From: Prochlorococcus sp. AG-402-N08
GTDB taxonomy: Bacteria; Cyanobacteriota; Cyanobacteriia; PCC-6307; Cyanobiaceae
NCBI GenBank assembly: GCA_003216535.1
Contig: QCIS01000012.1
Coordinates: 1 to 50,081, forward strand
Direction: 5' to 3'
DNA length: 50,081 bases
Part shown: piece by piece, positions 41,297 to 50,081 of the stretch
How positions within the stretch are numbered: the stretch's first letter is position 1
Layout: the number at the start of each line of letters is the position of its first letter
Program-made: the position numbers and the translations under genes
The notes under the pieces: model-generated
Seen by the model: the letters and a program-made list of their open reading frames with translations, nothing else
The model's database searches: none
What the model was told of the DNA's origin: nothing

Positions 41297-43519
41297 TTAT
41301 GTTAACTCTAAATCAATTTGATATTTAAGAATATCGACTTTTATAATTTTTACTTCTATTGCATCTCCAACTTTATATGATTTCTTAGATTTTCTTCCAA
41401 TCAATAAATTTTGTCTTGATCTATATTCATACCAATCATTATTGAGAGTGCTGACATGGACTAAACCTTCTACATTAAGTTCTGATATCTCAACAAAAAA
41501 ACCATAAGTTTGGACTGATATAATAAATCCACTATAAGTATTACCTAATAATTTTTCTGCTTTTCTTACTTTTTTAATATTTATTAAATTAGATTTATAT
41601 TGGTTAACTTTGTACTTATATTCATTGAGTTTATCTATTATAAACTTATTAAATAATGCATCTAAATTCTTTGTAATTGATGAATTGAATATATCCCAAT
41701 TTACTAATTTTATTGACTTACTCTCCGATATATTTATTTCATTAATATTATTTTTTTTTGATTTCTTACCATTTATTATCATGTTAAAAATAGAATACTG
41801 GTTTATAAGATTAGTGAAGTCATATCCAGGAACTGTCCAAGGAGAAATAAATATTTTTTCTGATTCATCATTATCAAGATTATTTGAAATCAATCTTATT
41901 TGATTTTCCTTGAATTCATTAATTAAAAGTTTATGTAAGATTCTTTTTTTATTATCATCTTCGCATAGCTTAATTACTTTACTAAATGACAAATTGCCAT
42001 CTTCATTTAGCTCTATATCATTTTCAATAAATTCTGAATATTTGATGATTTCATTTGCATTAATGTAATCTATTCCCTTTGGGCTGTATCCTGCGCTTTT
42101 TAAGCCATATTGATTTGAATGTTTAAACCATATTAAATTCGCTTCATGTAGTATTGGTGAAAGGTATGTTTGGCAGTCTTCTTTATTTAATGATGCAAAA
42201 TATCCTTTATAAGGTTCAGCAGGATTGTGAATAAAAAATTCATCTAATAATTCTATTTTATTGATTTGGGCAGGGATTTCAACCTTACCGTCTAAGAGAT
42301 GTTTTTGTCTGAATGAACATGAAATTTCCAGTATTTTATCTAAATCGTTGATATATTCCTTTATAGGTTTTAATACCCGAGAGGTTATTCTTGTTTTACT
42401 TTTTCTAGATAGAAGCGCGTCAGTATGATCACTTCCAATAATAATAGAGCATTTTACTAAAGTAAGATGAAATGACCAATCAGTTATTTCATTATCACTA
42501 TTTAAATGTAAACAGAGGCTAACTGCTTCATTCTTTTCACCAGATTTAAATCCGGAATCATTTCTTACAGCTTCACTAAGGTAGTTTTGCCAATCGTTTA
42601 ACAAGGGTAATGATTCGAAGCCATTAAATAAAATTTCTAGGGATTTTTTGCTATTTAGATCTAATCTTTCTGCAAGATTATTTGTATGTATCCATAATTT
42701 AGTACTTTTATTTTCCCCCTCCTCTATTTGAATCATTGGGAGCATTGGACAATTATCAGAATTCCAACTTTTGAATAAATAAGAGTTTTTATCTGCTAAG
42801 TCTATCCTCTCCCTTTTTTCTATTTTTTTAGATTCAATATTATTTAAATTGTATGACTTAACGATATTGCTTTTGGATAAAACAAAGTCTATATCTAATT
42901 CCTCATTATTGTTTAGTTTTAGTTCTTGTATCACATGGCCTAATCCTTCTTCTTGACCTATGGGAAATCTATCAATATTAACTTTAACTATATTTTTGTT
43001 TTCTGGTTTGAACGTGTATTTTTTATTCTCTTTTGGAAGTTTAATTTTTGAAAGGATCCTATCATCTATAGGGATTGCATACACATCATTGTTTATTATT
43101 TCAACTTTAGAAAGAAGTATTTGATTTGATCTTTCAAGAATACAATCAACAATTCCCTCTGGTGATCTTCTTCTGTAACCCTCTTTTATTATTCTTACTA
43201 AAACTTTATCTCCATTCCATGCATAATTAAGTAGATTTTCTTTAATGTATATATCTTCTTTGTCCATCCCTCTTACAGCAAAGCAATAACCTTTGCTACT
43301 ACATCTTATTTTGGCGACAAAGTGATCGCTATCTTTTATGCAGGTATATTCATCATCTTGATTTTTATTAATTATTTCAAGTTTTTCTAGAGCTGTTAAA
43401 GCAATATCTAATTTATCCTTATCAGATTTCTTTGTTATTTTTAATAATCTGCATAATTTTTTATATTCTAACCCCTCTGACTGATTCAGATTATCAATTA
43501 TTGAAGATGTTGTGAACAT
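41297..43519 (-). CDS. RNase II/R (RNB) family protein with degenerate active site
   Basis: 740 aa. Domain order fits RNB exoribonucleases: N-terminal cold-shock-like OB part (about 60-210), RNB domain (about 235-590) and C-terminal S1 domain (about 655-740; GNTYSGFIISVQTYGFFVEI and VEGLVHVSTL). The RNB domain starts ERIDLADKNSY, matching REDLT in E. coli RNase II. But the catalytic IDxxxxxDxDDA segment expected at about 247-262 is absent (LFKSWNSDNCPMLPM), and the SPxRxYxDxxxH segment near 559-573 reads SPWTVPGYDFTNLIN. Both the Asp cluster and the RNA-contact arginines are lost. It may bind RNA without degrading it. Related cyanobacterial proteins are called Zam or VacB-like. Confidence 0.8.
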   Translation of the reverse strand: MFTTSSIIDNLNQSEGLEYKKLCRLLKITKKSDKDKLDIALTALEKLEIINKNQDDEYTCIKDSDHFVAKIRCSSKGYCFAVRGMDKEDIYIKENLLNYAWNGDKVLVRIIKEGYRRRSPEGIVDCILERSNQILLSKVEIINNDVYAIPIDDRILSKIKLPKENKKYTFKPENKNIVKVNIDRFPIGQEEGLGHVIQELKLNNNEELDIDFVLSKSNIVKSYNLNNIESKKIEKRERIDLADKNSYLFKSWNSDNCPMLPMIQIEEGENKSTKLWIHTNNLAERLDLNSKKSLEILFNGFESLPLLNDWQNYLSEAVRNDSGFKSGEKNEAVSLCLHLNSDNEITDWSFHLTLVKCSIIIGSDHTDALLSRKSKTRITSRVLKPIKEYINDLDKILEISCSFRQKHLLDGKVEIPAQINKIELLDEFFIHNPAEPYKGYFASLNKEDCQTYLSPILHEANLIWFKHSNQYGLKSAGYSPKGIDYINANEIIKYSEFIENDIELNEDGNLSFSKVIKLCEDDNKKRILHKLLINEFKENQIRLISNNLDNDESEKIFISPWTVPGYDFTNLINQYSIFNMIINGKKSKKNNINEINISESKSIKLVNWDIFNSSITKNLDALFNKFIIDKLNEYKYKVNQYKSNLINIKKVRKAEKLLGNTYSGFIISVQTYGFFVEISELNVEGLVHVSTLNNDWYEYRSRQNLLIGRKSKKSYKVGDAIEVKIIKVDILKYQIDLELT

Positions 43520-43589
43520 GATCTAAATGAAATTATAAATTGATTAGGTTTATACACTTCATTATTGCACCTTTTATCCAAGCTTAAAA

Positions 43590-43901
43590 CTAATTATTTT
43601 CTTTCTCTTCTTTTTCTGATTTGTTGATAGTGAATGAGTTTATAAAAAGTCTAATACCAATGATCAAAAATGTAATAGAGGCTATTGATTTAAGTACTAT
43701 TTCCGGCAAAAAACTTGATATAGAACCACCAGTCAAAGCTCCTAGAAAACTTGCAAAGACAAGCGCAGAAGAAGAACCCAAGAAAACTGCCAATGGTTTT
43801 TTTGAAGTGCCGCTTATAGTTAATGTAGCTAGTTGGGTTTTGTCACCTAGTTCAGCTATAAAAACGGTTAGAAATGTTGATAGTAATAAACTTAAAACCA
43901 T
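43590..43901 (-). CDS. Half-size GDT1/UPF0016 transporter (second of a pair)
   Basis: 103 aa with three TM helices and one E-x-G-D-K-T motif (AELGDKTQLATL, about 16-27). Members of this family with two repeats (GDT1, TMEM165, Mnx) move Mn or Ca across membranes. Here one repeat is one gene, and the partner repeat is the abutting gene at 43902-44228, so a heterodimer is likely. The acidic C-terminal tail (NKSEKEEKENN) is cytoplasmic by charge. Its start codon directly precedes the partner's stop. Confidence 0.85.
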   Translation of the reverse strand: MVLSLLLSTFLTVFIAELGDKTQLATLTISGTSKKPLAVFLGSSSALVFASFLGALTGGSISSFLPEIVLKSIASITFLIIGIRLFINSFTINKSEKEEKENN

Positions 43902-44228
43902 TTATAAATAATTTTTAAAAGTATCATATGCTAAAAATATACTTATTATTATCATTAATACACTAGTAAATAAAGCAAATTTGCTTGGAGATATTTTTTT
44001 TGATAACCATTTACCTATAAGAACTCCTACTACACTGGAGCTTATTAGAGCTAAAGAACTCCCAAGAAAAACAATTATTGGCTTGCCTGATTCAGCGGAT
44101 AACATTAGTGTTGCTATTTGGGTTTTATCGCCAAGTTCAGCAATAAAAATTGTTGTAAAAGTCGTAATAAATATTGATAAGAAACTTTTTTCTAAATTGC
44201 TTTCTTTTTTTTCTAATTTAGTATTCAT
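43902..44228 (-). CDS. Half-size GDT1/UPF0016 transporter (first of a pair)
   Basis: 108 aa with an E-x-G-D-K-T motif in IAELGDKTQIATLMLSAE (about 33-50) and GSSLALISSSVVGVLIGKWL. Three TM helices, with a 15-20 residue charged N-terminal extension (LEKKESNLEKS). It precedes its partner repeat with no gap, and its start overlaps the YkgJ-type gene's stop by 4 bases. Likely Mn/Ca homeostasis, inferred from the family; Mn supply matters for photosystem II. Confidence 0.85.
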   Translation of the reverse strand: MNTKLEKKESNLEKSFLSIFITTFTTIFIAELGDKTQIATLMLSAESGKPIIVFLGSSLALISSSVVGVLIGKWLSKKISPSKFALFTSVLMIIISIFLAYDTFKNYL

Positions 44229-44572
44229 TTTCTTGAAACTGCAATTTTAAAAGATTTCATCTCTTTACTTTCGTATCCATAATTTGATGAAATATGTTGT
44301 TTACAGCAATCTATTAGAAATTTATCACCAGATTTCAAATATCCTTTAAATTTAATTGAGAATTCATTTACTCGGCAAAAGTGGGGTCTGGTTTCATAAA
44401 TTAAGCATTTTTTATTTTCTCTGTCCAGATTTTTACACCAACCGTATTTATCAGTCATTGAATTTATCAAAGCGATATCTTCTTTGTTAAGTTTGTCAGC
44501 CAAATCACTTCTTTCGTTCAATTCGAACTTACAACAAGCTCCGCAATTTTCTATACATGTCCATGATTTCAT
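44225..44572 (-). CDS. YkgJ-type cysteine-cluster protein
   Basis: 115 aa with CIENCGACCKFEL (5-17), CKNLDRENKKCLIYETRPHFCR (about 46-67) and CCKQH (about 88-92). The CxxxCxxCC...C...C pattern is the Fe/Zn-chelating cluster of the YkgJ/UPF0153 family. Exact chemistry unknown. It is the first gene of a three-gene unit with the paired GDT1 proteins (4-base ATGA overlap), which hints at a metal link. Divergent from the Psb30-like gene. Confidence 0.8.
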   Translation of the reverse strand: MKSWTCIENCGACCKFELNERSDLADKLNKEDIALINSMTDKYGWCKNLDRENKKCLIYETRPHFCRVNEFSIKFKGYLKSGDKFLIDCCKQHISSNYGYESKEMKSFKIAVSRK

Positions 44573-44653
44573 AATTTAATTCAATCTTGTAACGTATCAG
44601 TACAGTTCTGTCATTTATTTGTAAAAATAGTATCACAAAACATATTCACTATC

Positions 44654-44731
44654 ATGGCAACACTTATTCCTTTAGCTGTAGTTGCGCTAGCAGGACCAGC
44701 AATAATTGCTCTTGTATTTTACCGTAAATAA
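44654..44731 (+). CDS. Photosystem II Psb30/Ycf12-like peptide
   Basis: A 25 aa peptide, MATLIPLAVVALAGPAIIAL then VFYRK. One TM helix with the LAGPxxI kink and a short basic tail, the layout of Psb30/Ycf12, a PSII core subunit near the Psb-J/K/Z edge. ATG 44654, ending in TAA 44731. It has a spacer of 81 bases from the divergent YkgJ-type gene. The name is a resemblance call; other tiny thylakoid subunits could look similar. Confidence 0.55.
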   Translation: MATLIPLAVVALAGPAIIALVFYRK

Positions 44732-44741
44732 AAATTTTTCT

Positions 44742-45506
44742 TTGGTGAATTATCTTGAGGGTGTTTATTGGGATTTAGATGGTACCATTGCAAATACTGA
44801 ATTAGAGGCTCATTTACCTGCTTTTAATATTGCCTTCAAAGATCTTGGTATTAATTGGAATTGGGACACTGATAAATATATAAAGCTTTTGCAGATAAAT
44901 GGGGGCAAAAATAGGATTTCTTACTACGCTAAATCAAATAATTTTGATTTCTCAGAAGATTTAATTCTCAAAATTCATAAAAAAAAACAGTTTCATTATT
45001 TTGAAATTATAAAAAAAAATTATGTTAACTTCAAAACTGGTGTTTTTAGATTAATAAATGAATTACATAGAAAAAAAGTAAGACAATTTATTGTTACTTC
45101 AAGTTCAAGAAATCAAGTTGATCTACTTCTCGAATATTTATTTAATGGCTTCAATCCCTTTGAGTTCATTATTTCAAGTGAGGATGTTGAATTTAAAAAA
45201 CCAAATCCATTACCTTATTTAAAGGCAATTAAATTAAGTGGAATAGATAAAAATAACTCAATAGTTTTCGAAGACTCCAATCCAGGGTTGAAATCCTCCT
45301 TAGCAGCTAATTTACCGACAATCTTTGTTCCTTCAAATATTCCAATTGTTCTTGAGAAAAACATTAAATTAGATTGTATTTTAGACAGTCTTGGTGATGA
45401 GAATAATGTGGCAAATGTAATTAAAGGCCCTAAACTAAAAAAATCATATGTTGACTATTGCTTTCTATGTGATTATTTAATGTCTTTTAATAATGCAAAA
45501 AACTAA
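44742..45506 (+). CDS. HAD-superfamily hydrolase (CbbY/Gph-like phosphatase)
   Basis: About 254 aa. Motif I WDLDGTIANTE (catalytic Asp, residues about 10-20), motif II in FIVTSSSRNQ, motif III KKPNPLPYLKA, and motif IV VFEDSNPGL. This is the beta-phosphoglucomutase/CbbY/Gph branch of HAD phosphatases, acting on small phosphosugars. The frame runs back to 44706 inside the Psb30-like gene, so I begin at TTG 44742 (GTG 44745 is equal), which gives the expected N-terminus and clears the upstream gene by 10 bases. Ends by overlapping ycf20 by 14 bases. Confidence 0.85.
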   Translation: MVNYLEGVYWDLDGTIANTELEAHLPAFNIAFKDLGINWNWDTDKYIKLLQINGGKNRISYYAKSNNFDFSEDLILKIHKKKQFHYFEIIKKNYVNFKTGVFRLINELHRKKVRQFIVTSSSRNQVDLLLEYLFNGFNPFEFIISSEDVEFKKPNPLPYLKAIKLSGIDKNNSIVFEDSNPGLKSSLAANLPTIFVPSNIPIVLEKNIKLDCILDSLGDENNVANVIKGPKLKKSYVDYCFLCDYLMSFNNAKN

Positions 45507-45819
45507 TTTTTCAAGAATTACATACCAGTTAAATAATTTATTTTTTGGGTTTCTAAGTGATACCTGGAGGGCAAAATCTATAGGTTTAATTTCTGTTTTG
45601 ACAGGTTATTTTTTGTTTGCGAATTTTCTTACAAAATTTATATCTGAAGGTAAAAATGAGTTAATCATGGTTCCAATAATTATCGTTTTTATTGAAATCA
45701 TTATAAGAATTAAACCTTCCTCAAGTTCAAAATTTTATTATCTATGGTCCGTAGTTGATAAATTAAGAATTGGTGCAATTTATGCCATTATACTTGAGGC
45801 ATTTAAATTAGGATCTTAA
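45493..45819 (+). CDS. ycf20: Ycf20-like protein (DUF565)
   Basis: 108 aa with TRLNNLxxx-like start (RITYQLNNLFFGFLSDTWRA, 8-27), two TM helices (about 29-46 and 57-72), and a C-terminal LWSVVDKLRIGAIYAIILEAFKLGS. That ending is the strong hallmark of Ycf20, a plastid/cyanobacterial membrane protein linked to non-photochemical quenching in algae. ATG at 45493 overlaps the HAD gene by 14 bases. Convergent with rpmF three bases downstream. Confidence 0.8.
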   Translation: MQKTNFSRITYQLNNLFFGFLSDTWRAKSIGLISVLTGYFLFANFLTKFISEGKNELIMVPIIIVFIEIIIRIKPSSSSKFYYLWSVVDKLRIGAIYAIILEAFKLGS

Positions 45820-45822
45820 AAG

Positions 45823-45993
45823 CTATTCATCATCATCTTCTTCAATAGGGTAAACAAATCCTTGAGCTTTCCCAGTTAAAACTGATTTACCTAAAGAAAT
45901 AGCTTTTTGAGCTGCTATTGCAGCTTTCCCTTTCCAGACAGCATGCCTTTGGTTCCTTTTGCTCTTTGATTTTTTCTTCTTTGGTACAGCCAT
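45823..45993 (-). CDS. rpmF: 50S ribosomal protein L32
   Basis: 56 aa: [20 protein letters not shown], then [21 protein letters not shown] and an acidic end (EEDDDE). The MAVPKKKxSxxKRxxRxxxW start is the L32 signature. The zinc-binding cysteines seen in some L32 are absent, as is usual for cyanobacterial copies. Convergent with ycf20, divergent from the FtsH-like gene. Confidence 0.95.
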
Positions 45994-46124
45994 TCTGTTT
46001 CTTTATTTCCTTATATTAATATAACCTTTAACTGGTTATCTCCAAAACTTTTGAGTATATTTTGTTTATATACGTCAATTTTTAAAATAAGCATATATGC
46101 TTTATTAATCACTTATAAAGATTA

Positions 46125-47879
46125 GTGTTTAGATCAAAATTCTCATATTCAAATTCAAAATCAAGTTATTCGGATCTTCTAGTAGATATAGAGACTGGGA
46201 AAATTGAATCAATTTTTTTCTATCCTAGACAGAGAGAAATTGATGTTCTATATAAAAATGGCGATAAATTTAAAATACCTATCCTTTACAACGATCAATT
46301 AATCCTTGAAAAGGCTACTGAAAATAAAGTGAATCTTACTATTAACAATAGTAGAAAAGAAGCCTCAGCTGCTAATTCATTTGCTTCAATAAGTCTTTTC
46401 CTGATTTTTATATTAGCTATAGTCTTAATCTTGAGGAGTACTTCAAAATTGGCTTCTAGAGCCTTTGGGTTTACCAAAAATCAAGCTAAATTTGTAACTA
46501 TTGATGATGTAGAAACGAGATTCGATGATGTAGCAGGTGTTCCTGAAGCCGCTGAGGAATTAAAAGAGGTAATAACTTTTTTAAAAGAACCAAAAAAATT
46601 TGAAAATCTTGGAGCAAAAGTTCCTAAAGGAGTTCTTTTAATTGGCCCTCCAGGAACAGGTAAAACATTATTGGCTAAAGCAATTGCCGGTGAATCAGGA
46701 GTGCCTTTCCTCTCTATATCGGCATCAGAGTTTGTAGAACTTTTTGTTGGTGTTGGTGCAAGCCGAGTGCGCGATCTATTTTCTAAGGCTAAGGAAAAAT
46801 CTCCTTGTATAATTTTTATTGATGAAATTGATTCTATTGGTAGGCAAAGAGGTTCTGGGATCGGAGGTGGAAATGATGAAAGAGAACAAACCCTTAATCA
46901 GCTTCTAACTGAATTAGATGGGTTCGCTGATAATTCCGGAATTATTGTTTTAGCAGCAACAAATAGACCAGATATTTTGGATGCAGCGTTATTAAGACCA
47001 GGAAGATTTGATAGGAAAATAGAAGTAATGCTTCCAGATTTAGATGGAAGAAAAAAAATTCTTTCAGTTCATTCACTTTCAAAACCACTTTCAAGCGAAG
47101 TTGACTTAGGATATTGGGCTTCTAGAACAGTTGGATTTTCAGGGGCCGATCTTGCAAATTTAATGAACGAAAGTGCTATTCACTGTGCAAGATATGAATC
47201 AAAATTAATCAATGATCTTCATATTGAAAATGCACTGGATAAAATTACCATTGGCCTGAGAAGTTCATTGATAACTTCCGCAAATATGAAGAAAATTATT
47301 GCTTATAACGAAGTAGGTCGAGCTATAGTATCTGCTGTGAGAAATGGAATTGAATCAGTTGATAAGATTACTATTTTACCTAGATCTGGATCTCTAGGAG
47401 GATATACAAAAATATGCCCAGACGAAGATGTAATTTCTAGTGGCTTGATTTCAAAAAAATTATTATTTTCAAAAATTGAAATTGCTTTAGCTGGTAGAGC
47501 AGCAGAAACGGTAGTTTTTGGTGAAAGTGAAATTACACAATGCTCCATAAATGATATATCTTATGCGACAAACATCGTAAGAGAAATGGTTACAAAATAC
47601 GGATTTTCAATTATAGGACCAATTTCAATGGAATCTGATAATAATGAAATGTTTTTGGGAGATGGATTATTTAGAAGAAAGCCTCTCTTAGCAGAAAATA
47701 CTAGTTCTAGAATAGATAATGAAATCATAAAGATTTCAAAAATTTCATTAAATAATTCAATTAATATATTGAAAAAGAATAGAGTTTTATTAGATAAATT
47801 AGTTGATATACTTTTAAATCAAGAATCTATAGATAAAAAAGTTTTTAAATTAACAACTTCTAAATTGTTGAAAGTTTGA
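46125..47879 (+). CDS. FtsH-like AAA ATPase with destroyed protease motif
   Basis: 584 aa. A lumenal-type N-domain ([13 protein letters not shown]...[11 protein letters not shown], 15-50), one TM helix (about 87-104), and an intact AAA module: Walker A GPPGTGKT (174-181), Walker B IIFIDEID (229-236), SRH from ATNRPDIL to GRFDR (278-297). In the peptidase part the zinc motif HExGH reads NEVGR (395-399), so both histidine ligands are lost; the third ligand region SINDI (474-478) is retained. GTG 46125 is the earliest start; a stop lies two codons before it, so the normal first TM helix is missing. Likely a regulatory, unfolding-only partner of active FtsH, similar in logic to plant FtsHi. Confidence 0.85.
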
Positions 47880-47916
47880 TTTAATTGTTTTAAATTAAAA
47901 AAAATATAATATTTTC

Positions 47917-48669
47917 TTGATAATTAAAAACAATACAACGAAGTTATTAGTTACACTTTCATTCTTACTTATTCTTCCAATTGTACAAAAACAATGGTTT
48001 AATTTGTATTTATTCAATATTAATAATATTACCTTTTATTCAATTATTTACTATTTGAGCGGTACGATATGCCCATCTTTGGTAAGTTTAAACTCATTAA
48101 AAAACTATACATACTATAGTTTTAATAAGAACTCAATTGATAGTAAAAATTTAATTAAAGGGAAAGGATTATTATTCTTAGTAGCAATAAATTTGATATT
48201 TCTCTCGTACTTTATAGCTGATTATATATATATAAATTTTGATCTTATATTTAATTTATTTCTTGAAGGATTTGATTTAACAAAACCGGATATATTTCAG
48301 TTTAGTTTATTTATATTTTTCATTTCTATTTTATCTATTTTTAAGAAATCTAGGCTTTTATTAAAAAAATTAATATTGGTAAATTTTATTTTGATTTCTT
48401 TTTACCTCTGGCATCTTCAAATTAATAATATTAATGTTGATGATCAGTTTTATATTTATAGATATTTTGGTTTAAATGACTTAAATTTAATTAATATTTT
48501 TATCTTAATCGCTATAGAAATTTCTTATTTTACTTGGTCTTTTTTATCATATAAAACTAATTTAAGCGATTGGATCGTACGCATACCTCAAAAAAGAGAT
48601 GTTTTCCCCCTTTTGAATATGTTTATTTTTTATTTTTTTATAATTATTTACTACTCTATACTTACTTAA
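47917..48669 (+). CDS. Unknown polytopic membrane protein, 250 aa
   Basis: Seven or so hydrophobic segments spread over the whole length: 9-25, 37-52, 76-93, about 104-115, 125-140, about 148-165, 194-212 and 230-247. Charged loops are short (NKNSIDSKNLIKGKG; RIPQKRDVFP). No motif identifies a transporter family. The start is TTG 47917; no ATG fits. It follows the FtsH-like gene by 37 bases on the same strand and could share its transcript. Convergent with the peroxiredoxin gene. Confidence 0.55.
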   Translation: MIIKNNTTKLLVTLSFLLILPIVQKQWFNLYLFNINNITFYSIIYYLSGTICPSLVSLNSLKNYTYYSFNKNSIDSKNLIKGKGLLFLVAINLIFLSYFIADYIYINFDLIFNLFLEGFDLTKPDIFQFSLFIFFISILSIFKKSRLLLKKLILVNFILISFYLWHLQINNINVDDQFYIYRYFGLNDLNLINIFILIAIEISYFTWSFLSYKTNLSDWIVRIPQKRDVFPLLNMFIFYFFIIIYYSILT

Positions 48670-48684
48670 ATATTTCTAATGTTT

Positions 48685-49269
48685 CTATAGCGCAGAAAAA
48701 TATTCCTTACTACCTTTGGGGTCTTCTAACATTGTTTTCTCCCCAGGGGTCCAGTTTGCTGGACAAACTTCGTCTGGATTTGCCGCAACGTATTGATAAC
48801 CTTGAAGAATCCTTAGTGTTTCATCAACATTTCTGCCTACAGGAGCCTTGTTAACAGTCGTATGCATAACAACTCCTTCGGGATTGATAAGAAATAAACC
48901 TCTATCTGCCTCACCGTCATCATTAAGAACATTGTAAGCTTGGCAAATTTCTCTTTTTAAGTCAGAAACTAACGGATAATTGATATCACCTATTCCACCT
49001 TCATTTCTTGGAGTTTGTATCCAAGCTAAATGACAGTGTTTGCTATCAACTGATACTCCAAGTATTTCAGTGTTAAGTGCTGAGAAATCTTGATATCTAT
49101 CACTAAATGCAGTGATTTCAGTTGGACATACAAATGTAAAATCTAGTGGATAAAAGAATAAAACAACCCATTTGCCTCTTAGACCAGAAAGTGTAATCTC
49201 CTTAAACTCTTGATCATATACTGCTGTAGCACTAAAGTCTGGTGCTTCTTGGCCAACTCTTAAGCTCAT
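48685..49269 (-). CDS. 2-Cys peroxiredoxin
   Basis: 194 aa. Peroxidatic cysteine C48 in FTFVCPTEI and resolving cysteine C169 in DEVCPANW, typical of AhpC/Prx1-type peroxiredoxins with the YF motif near the end (EYFSAL). GGIGDIN and the YF tail make it sensitive to overoxidation. It reduces H2O2 and alkyl peroxides with thioredoxin electrons. A 13-base palindrome (49302-49314) sits 33 bases before its ATG and may be an operator. Confidence 0.96.
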
Positions 49270-49301
49270 GAATAAATTTGTCCTTATTTAAATTTTTATA
49301 T

Positions 49302-49314
49302 GGTCATAATGACC
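49302..49314. promoter_or_regulatory. Palindrome upstream of the peroxiredoxin gene
   Basis: GGTCAT-A-ATGACC is a perfect 13-base palindrome, 33 bases from the ATG of the peroxiredoxin gene (minus strand). It is more GC-rich than the spacer around it. Possible operator; I cannot assign a regulator (not a clear NtcA, Fur, PerR or CRP site). Confidence 0.4.
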
Positions 49315-49369
49315 GTAATACATATTATAATTTTATTAATAATAAATTAGCAAGTTTTTTTTTAATTCA

Positions 49370-49495
49370 ATGAAATGGCATTATCCTTTTACTAGGAAGT
49401 TTACAATTTTGAATCATAATAAACTTTTAAAAAATCTCAAAAAGGAGTTAATTAAATATCCCATTAACAGGCTTGATAATAAAAATTCGAATTAA
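49370..49495 (+). CDS. Small basic hypothetical protein, 41 aa
   Basis: ATG 49370: MKWHYPFTRKFTILNHNKLL, then KNLKKELIKYPINRLDNKNSN. Basic (Lys/Arg-rich), no TM segment, clean start and stop. Divergent from the peroxiredoxin gene. No family recognised, but the ORF has coding-like composition rather than random AT sequence. Confidence 0.4.
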   Translation: MKWHYPFTRKFTILNHNKLLKNLKKELIKYPINRLDNKNSN

Positions 49496-49570
49496 AAGAA
49501 TTTTTTTTTATTTAAGATTTCTTTAAATTCAACTCTATATAATTAATACTATCCTTTTAATATTTAATAA

Positions 49571-49729
49571 ATGGCAAAATATATTGAAAGACTAAAGAAT
49601 AAAATTAAAATTAAAAAATTCGATTCTAATCAGCCAATTGGCGCTTGGATTTTCGTTGTTATACTAAATATAGTAGGATTTGCGGGTTATTTTTATTTAA
49701 AGGTAAATAATATACAACTAGGTAATTAA
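49571..49729 (+). CDS. Small single-pass membrane protein, 52 aa
   Basis: ATG 49571: a basic N-terminus (MAKYIERLKNKIKIKKFDSN) followed by one TM helix (about 23-43, PIGAWIFVVILNIVGFAGYF) and a short polar end. Positive-inside charge places the N-terminus in the cytoplasm. No family recognised; typical of small thylakoid or plasma-membrane proteins. Convergent with the 73 aa gene, 4 bases apart. Confidence 0.5.
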   Translation: MAKYIERLKNKIKIKKFDSNQPIGAWIFVVILNIVGFAGYFYLKVNNIQLGN

Positions 49730-49733
49730 AAAC

Positions 49734-49955
49734 TTACCTTATTTCCTTTTTAATTGAGCGACAAAAATTTTTTAGTCTTTCATTTCTAGTTAAGTCAGGT
49801 AAAGTCCATATAGATTCTGTTTCAGGTATTGGATCTTTGCTCCATTCTTTAAATTCTTCCATTATCGAGGCATTATTCAATTTAGATACCAACTTTTTTC
49901 GTTTTACTAAATATTTTCTAATTACTGATAGATTTTCCTCAATATATTCCCTCAT
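49734..49955 (-). CDS. Hypothetical 73 aa protein
   Basis: A soluble, charged protein: MREYIEENLSVIRKYLVKRK, then KLVSKLNNASIMEEFKEWSKDPI and ESIWTLPDLTRNERLKNFCRS. No TM segment or signal peptide. The clean ATG and the balanced charge pattern favour a real small protein. Family not recognised. Confidence 0.5.
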   Translation of the reverse strand: MREYIEENLSVIRKYLVKRKKLVSKLNNASIMEEFKEWSKDPIPETESIWTLPDLTRNERLKNFCRSIKKEIR

Positions 49956-50018
49956 AATAAATACTTAATCTTATATTAATTTACCATCTTGCTAGTTATG
50001 TTTTATAGAAAGAAATAA

Positions 50019-50081
50019 TTAGACGTTTTGTACTGCTTGAAAAAGTCCAAATGAATAACCGCCTATTAGAATCCAGCCAAG
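50019..50081 (-). CDS. C-terminal end of a minus-strand protein, cut by the window edge
   Basis: The frame is open from the window end to TAA (50019-50021) and encodes LGWILIGGYSFGLFQAVQNV. The hydrophobic, glycine-rich stretch suggests the last membrane segment of an integral membrane protein. Too short to name. Confidence 0.4.
   Translation of the reverse strand, partial: LGWILIGGYSFGLFQAVQNV

Follow-up and report, generated by a model that had tools for sequence, protein, structure and literature searches.

What is an FtsH protein retained for when its motor motifs are kept and its cutting site is lost? The question is raised by a gene in the window analysed here, a stretch of 50,081 nucleotides from Prochlorococcus sp. 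AG-402-N08 (contig QCIS01000012.1). The analysis considered whether the loss is local or belongs to a lineage, which of the cyanobacterial FtsH paralogues has been affected, and whether the gene is still under selection.

An FtsH with motor motifs and an eroded zinc site

The gene and its surroundings contain the following features:

46125-47879, + strand: protease-dead FtsH (MED4 'FtsH 4' / Synechocystis FtsH1 type), 584 aa, GTG start
46125-46364, + strand: N-terminal domain of the FtsH extracellular type, residues 1-80, without the first transmembrane (TM) helix (hydropathy, structure model, weak FtsH_ext match below its cut-off)
46365-46454, + strand: single TM helix, residues 81-110 (hydropathy peak; helix 81-110 in the structure model)
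46500-47249, + strand: AAA+ ATPase including lid, residues 126-375 (Pfam, motif reading, alignment)
47274-47846, + strand: M41 protease domain, residues 384-574 (Pfam PF01434, 149 bits; fold predicted intact)
47307-47321, + strand: eroded zinc motif NEVGR (N395, E396, V397, G398, R399), replacing HExGH
47553-47555, + strand: D477 (in SINDI), third zinc ligand position, Asp in the window
48685-49269, - strand: 2-Cys peroxiredoxin, downstream neighbour

The GTG start lies two codons past an in-frame stop. The protein reaches 645 bits with the NCBI FtsH model (TIGR01241 FtsH_fam, cut-off 600), and matches the Pfam families AAA, AAA_lid_3 and Peptidase_M41. Both family hallmarks, the AAA module and the subsequent M41 fold, are there. 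Two features of active FtsH are absent, namely the HExxH zinc motif and the pair of N-terminal TM helices. Three further FtsH proteins are encoded in the same genome, each with HE(V/A)GH.

The first-pass annotation had described NEVGR in place of HExGH, with both histidine ligands gone, and canonical Walker A, Walker B and SRH motifs. The former is exactly as it said, and the latter are indeed canonical: Walker A is GPPGTGKT (G174-T181), Walker B spans F231-D236 and the SRH residues 277-297. An FVG pore motif is found at F207-V-G209. The gene is therefore confirmed as an FtsH with its motor motifs kept and its zinc site lost. Between it and the peroxiredoxin lies a hydrophobic ORF of 250 aa without a Pfam match (47917-48669), and no Rfam family reached its gathering score in the region 43000-50081.

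Zinc-site loss across the genus and its origin

Both zinc histidines are absent in all 49 orthologous loci of the genus, with Asn and Arg in their places (47 distinct DNA sequences; three loci come from a named collection, one of these duplicating a counted genome). No close relative was read with HExGH. A sequencing error or a recent mutation, both considered in the first-pass annotation, is ruled out by this shared loss. The Glu and Gly of NEVGR are invariant in 49/49 loci, and the Val is changed once, to Gly, in the sole NEGGR copy (L179, genome G010). Among the 47 distinct sequences the Arg is encoded by AGA (37), CGT (8) or CGA (2), and the Gly by all four of its codons. Since the motif residues are fixed while the silent sites vary, the eroded motif itself is held by selection.

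Outside the genus, we compared 89 orthologues spanning the family Cyanobiaceae and close named relatives. The ligands and the catalytic Glu (H, E, H, D) are retained in 62 of them and not in the remaining 27. Together with eight representatives of the genus, these 27 give 35 eroded rows, which are not independent; like all orthologue rows, they were taken from search hits and not by random draw. Within the genus the motif is NEVGR or NEGGR. Outside it, the eroded rows read NEVGK, HEAGR, NEAGK, YEIGR, HEIGK, HQIGK, NEIGR, NTIGR, NEIGI, QIIGK, QIIGR or RNASK. Position 399, that of the second histidine, never retains His (0/35) and holds Lys in 21 rows, Arg in 13 and Ile in one. At the first histidine (395) we found Asn in 13 rows, Gln in 13, His in seven, and Tyr and Arg in one each. 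In the genus g32 the catalytic Glu is lost as well (13 rows: QIIGK 12, QIIGR 1). The first-pass reading that the Asp ligand remains is correct for the window (D477), but does not extend to the whole clade: two of the 49 genus loci have it replaced (D 47, N 1, H 1), as do 14 of the 35 eroded rows (D 21, Q 6, E 4, N 2, H 2). The most eroded copy, a 574-aa ORF in genome G061 (L261), has RNASK for HExGH and an altered SRH (RAGRFDK), in an open frame.

The eroded rows form a single clade, which implies one loss. A maximum-likelihood tree was calculated from 61 rows, comprising the 35 eroded ones and 26 of the 62 intact, with the motif columns excluded. It splits eroded from intact rows with a support of 98/98, and parsimony requires one change. 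A quick tree that included the motif columns, and the intact rows fetched by then, likewise recovered the eroded sequences as a single clade (SH-aLRT 97). Repeated independent losses, suggested at first by the diversity of the motifs, are not what the tree gives.

Gene order agrees with the tree, as the peroxiredoxin neighbour is common to the eroded clade. Within the flank read, a 2-Cys peroxiredoxin is found downstream at 31 of 32 eroded loci versus none of 28 intact ones, and the flank of the single exception is only 374 bases long. The gene rpmF lies upstream of 29/32 eroded and 22/28 intact loci. These neighbours were scored by a simple motif test, and some flanks are short.

As placed by these comparisons, the loss is one that occurred in the common ancestor of a single Prochlorococcus clade, consisting of the MED4 genus and its nearest lines, SS120 included. 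Genome G066, which we take to be SS120, carries NEAGK in its FtsH1-type gene and is placed in the eroded clade. Most simply, the second histidine would have changed to Lys or Arg first, and the first histidine would have been lost later in several lines.

Identity of the paralogue

The published primers for MED4 'FtsH 4' match one locus among 318, the orthologue in genome G015, where they span the stated 203 bases. The forward primers for MED4 FtsH 1, 2 and 3 match other paralogue types (C3, C5 and C7). The MIT9313 'FtsH 4' forward primer matches only the orthologue in genome G104, whose zinc site is intact. In published work the name 'FtsH 4' thus covers one protein with a dead zinc site and another whose site is intact. 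We did not find this contrast noted in the available text of the literature searched; that of PMC6300248 uses none of the words zinc, motif, inactive and proteolytic, and that of PMC11262661 uses neither zinc nor proteolytic.

In a table of PMC11262661, Prochlorococcus FtsH4 is listed as the equivalent of Synechocystis FtsH1 (Slr1390) under the label 'Cell viability'; the underlying study terms this relation 'less obvious than the others' (PMC6300248). In a paralogue tree of 41 rows, the window clade and five FtsH from other families (L295-L298, L300) split from the other 28 rows, of the FtsH2, 3 and 4 types, with an SH-aLRT of 100; a long-branch warning applies to this tree, in which Synechocystis is not represented by any named sequence. 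Judged by the published table, the primer matches and the tree, the window gene is the orthologue of Synechocystis FtsH1, not of FtsH2. A special role in photosystem II (PSII) repair, as proposed in the first-pass annotation, is not supported by this assignment, which points to the FtsH1/3 complex of the cytoplasmic membrane. The FtsH3-type gene is intact (HEAGH) in all ten genus genomes examined.

Selection on the eroded gene

Among ten genomes of the genus, the window gene has a dN/dS of 0.092 (Nei-Gojobori counts, pairs with dS under 1.5), with 0.127 for the N-terminal part, 0.051 for the AAA and 0.133 for the M41 domain. This is 3 to 5.4 times the values of the three paralogues in the same genomes, which lie at about 0.017-0.031 (FtsH3-type 0.018, FtsH2-type 0.031, FtsH4-type 0.017). 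The eroded genus g32 gives 0.100 overall, 0.062 for AAA and 0.122 for M41. For intact orthologues of other genera, the seven pairs that could be used range from 0.016 to 0.106 (AAA 0.005-0.064, M41 0.018-0.130). The eroded gene therefore evolves faster than its paralogues, yet near the upper end of intact orthologues, and is not free of selection. Relaxation of the whole gene, which the first-pass annotation had asked about, is not borne out: selection is purifying, at 0.09 overall and most strongly so in the AAA part. A relaxed pseudogene is rejected as the main reading on the values in the genus and in g32. Some relaxation nonetheless occurred, as indicated by a dN/dS above the paralogues together with the long branches leading into the eroded groups in the maximum-likelihood tree (0.95 for the window's genus).

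Substitutions are unevenly spread over the protein. AAA columns that do not vary among the 62 intact orthologues have their residue retained in the eroded rows at an average rate of 0.937, and 107 of 140 columns are kept at 95% or more. For M41 columns chosen in the same way the average is 0.731, and only 16 of 55 columns reach that level. By this count, erosion is centred on the cutting domain.

Membrane topology and predicted structure

Hydropathy indicates one TM helix in all 35 eroded rows and in 51 of the 62 intact rows, and two in 30/30 paralogues of ten genus genomes. The remaining 11 intact rows have an additional hydrophobic stretch upstream in the open frame; the six inspected resemble antisense rpmF. 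An early hydrophobic stretch is also present in four of six FtsH1-type candidates from other families. The FtsH1-type orthologue of the Cyanobiaceae (97 orthologues) is without the first TM helix, and the loss of this helix would predate that of the zinc site.

The predicted monomer (pLDDT 75, pTM 0.54) keeps the M41 fold, with NEVGR on a helix of residues 386-407. Its fold matches are FtsH, m-AAA and chains of plastid FtsHi motor complexes, with structural-alignment identities of 42-55% to bacterial FtsH and 28-38% to the chains of FtsHi complexes. The best PDB matches by sequence are bacterial FtsH proteins.

Genomes in which the gene was not found, and phage matches

A match at E 0 was obtained for 52 of the 61 genomes sampled from the genus; completeness is 51-86% in the nine that lack one. 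At least 266 of 300 genomes in the family survey have a match at E <= 1e-160, a cut that does not equal orthology, as the match in genome G152 resembles the FtsH2-type paralogue. Searching again in 14 genomes without a strong match retrieved the very divergent copy of G061, and two contig-end fragments in G221. The orthologue was not found in the other 12, each of which shows one to three FtsH.

The neighbouring HAD-hydrolase gene, present in both control genomes, was not found in 11 of these 12 either (G136 has a weak match), so that either a deletion or an assembly gap would account for the absence. Two of the 12 genomes are fairly complete, G074 (99%) and G106 (94%); in both, only three FtsH and no HAD-hydrolase neighbour were found. 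A complete loss of the FtsH1-type subunit is possible in these two. Some lineages may manage without the subunit, given that no orthologue was found in 12 genomes and that two of these are fairly complete.

Phage genomes, considered with a possible phage origin in mind, carry related genes as well: a match at E <= 1e-20 was obtained for 35 of 50,697 records. Top-ranked among the matches listed (the best 8 of 35) is an annotated ftsH of Microcystis phage MaAM05 (MW495066.1, 201467-202867), with 49% identity over 81% of the query.

A proposed protease complex with motor and cutting divided between subunits

In the reading that we favour, and consider somewhat more probable than all others taken together, the protein is an FtsH1-like subunit of type B with ATPase function only, built into a hetero-hexameric membrane AAA+ protease where it alternates with an active FtsH3-type subunit. 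After the zinc site was lost in the ancestor of the clade, the subunit would have been retained for its presumed ATPase activity. It would alternate with the still active FtsH3-type (type A) partner; both types would power unfolding and threading by ATP, and cutting would be left to the zinc sites of the partner. FtsH1 and FtsH2 of Synechocystis belong to type B, and their common partner FtsH3 to type A (PMC9020784). The available text of this review further states that loss of the ATPase of type-B FtsH compromises PSII repair, and that loss of its protease does not. With motor motifs kept, blade lost and partner intact, the Prochlorococcus gene resembles a natural, fixed case of this protease-dead type-B state.

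A more tentative suggestion concerns the residue at position 399. Its Lys or Arg may fill the emptied metal site, pairing with the remaining acidic residues in a putative salt bridge, so that a basic side chain would replace the zinc ion and hold the M41 site, kept by selection while the first ligand drifts. We regard this as possible, though rather doubtful. It is consistent with the presence of Lys or Arg in 34 of the 35 eroded rows. Caution is advised, as the conservation by residue class at 399 (0.971) is matched or exceeded by 56 of 204 M41 columns; the first-histidine column, with N, Q and H taken as one class, reaches 0.943.

The protein could instead act alone, as homo-hexamers that spend ATP on the extraction or assembly of membrane proteins and do not degrade them, a role of the kind put forward for plant FtsHi motors. 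The kept AAA motifs would suit such an unfoldase or chaperone, as would the single-TM architecture against two-TM paralogues and the predicted fold, which matches FtsH, m-AAA and plastid FtsHi motor chains. The last match is, however, generic to the FtsH fold, being closer to bacterial FtsH (42-55%) than to the FtsHi-complex chains (28-38%), and Synechocystis FtsH1 occurs together with FtsH3 (PMC9020784); we consider a stand-alone role rather unlikely. A link to PSII repair, the idea of the first-pass annotation, could persist if the protein competed for the FtsH3-type subunit and thereby diluted or tuned the FtsH2/FtsH3-type protease. It would have this partner in common with the repair protease, and the high-light strain MED4 belongs to the eroded clade. 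So does low-light SS120, if G066 is what we take it to be, so that high-light repair alone is an insufficient explanation. Furthermore, the rise of FtsH in MED4 under high light involves mostly isoforms 1 and 2 (PMC6300248), and we judge such a regulator unlikely.

Slow decay toward loss would account for a dN/dS above that of the paralogues, for the varied remnants of the zinc site with the very eroded RNASK copy, and for the missing copy in 12 of 14 re-searched genomes, most of them incomplete. Yet in every aligned row the reading frame stays open all the way between Walker A and the Asp site, the dN/dS of 0.09-0.10 in two eroded genera overlaps that of the seven intact pairs (0.016-0.106), and NEVGR and QIIGK are each kept despite synonymous codon change. 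Decay is thus quite improbable. Least of all do we expect that peptide cleavage persists by another route, with a different metal or residue set. The genus itself would allow it, with Glu396 in 49/49 and Asp477 in 47/49 loci. Across the clade, however, 13 of the 35 eroded rows have Ile in place of Glu396, three have some other residue there, and 14 have lost the Asp. We know of no M41 protease that works without the histidine pair.

If the hetero-hexamer reading is true, a half-armed FtsH, with motor and cutting split between its subunits, is fixed in the MED4 genus and its nearest low-light relatives. Such a clade, with one disarmed half, raises the question whether cutting by the FtsH1 half matters. 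It also offers a bacterial pseudo-protease of single origin, with close intact relatives available for comparison.

Comparison with known systems

The first-pass annotation knew of no characterised cyanobacterial FtsH without HExGH, which was incomplete: one presumably inactive FtsHi had been reported in P. marinus SS120 (Mishra et al. 2019, Mishra and Funk 2021; PMC6460958, PMC8197885). What their available text reports is a count for a single strain; nothing on the clade, its single origin, the identity of the paralogue or the constraint was found there. The reported FtsHi is very likely the same gene as the G066 copy, given its NEAGK motif, its place in the eroded clade and the assumed identity of that genome. 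No other open paper in our search contains 'FtsHi' together with 'Prochlorococcus'. Judged by our literature searches, what is new here comprises the extent of the loss across the clade, its single origin and likely order, the assignment to the FtsH1 type, the basic residue, the constraint on the gene, and the intact zinc site in MIT9313.

The analogy to plant FtsHi drawn in the first-pass annotation, that of a cyanobacterial pseudo-protease with intact ATPase motifs, holds up well, with the loss conserved in 49/49 loci under a dN/dS of 0.09. Like the plant and algal proteins (Arabidopsis FtsHi1, 2, 4 and 5; the Ycf2-FtsHi import motor), the Prochlorococcus protein combines an FtsH fold and AAA module with a mutated zinc motif, and has been retained. 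Unlike them, it is a bacterial protein with one TM helix that arose from a cyanobacterial gene of the FtsH1 type in a single Prochlorococcus clade, and no Ycf2 or import role is known for it.

Its orthologue by published table, primer identity and tree is Synechocystis FtsH1 (Slr1390) of the FtsH1/3 complex. PMC11287208 describes that complex as essential, while the reasons 'remain elusive'. The 62 family orthologues outside the eroded clade, a set to which the Synechocystis sequence does not belong, keep HExGH and the Asp.

In function, the nearest parallel would be the engineered protease-dead type-B FtsH (Zhang et al. 2010, Yu 2013, cited in PMC9020784), in which the protease site is dispensable and the ATPase needed. 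That case is a laboratory mutant in the PSII-repair complex, whereas the one in Prochlorococcus is natural and fixed in a genus. The Prochlorococcus case yields a clear prediction for FtsH hetero-hexamers, that the type-B half needs its motor, not its blade.
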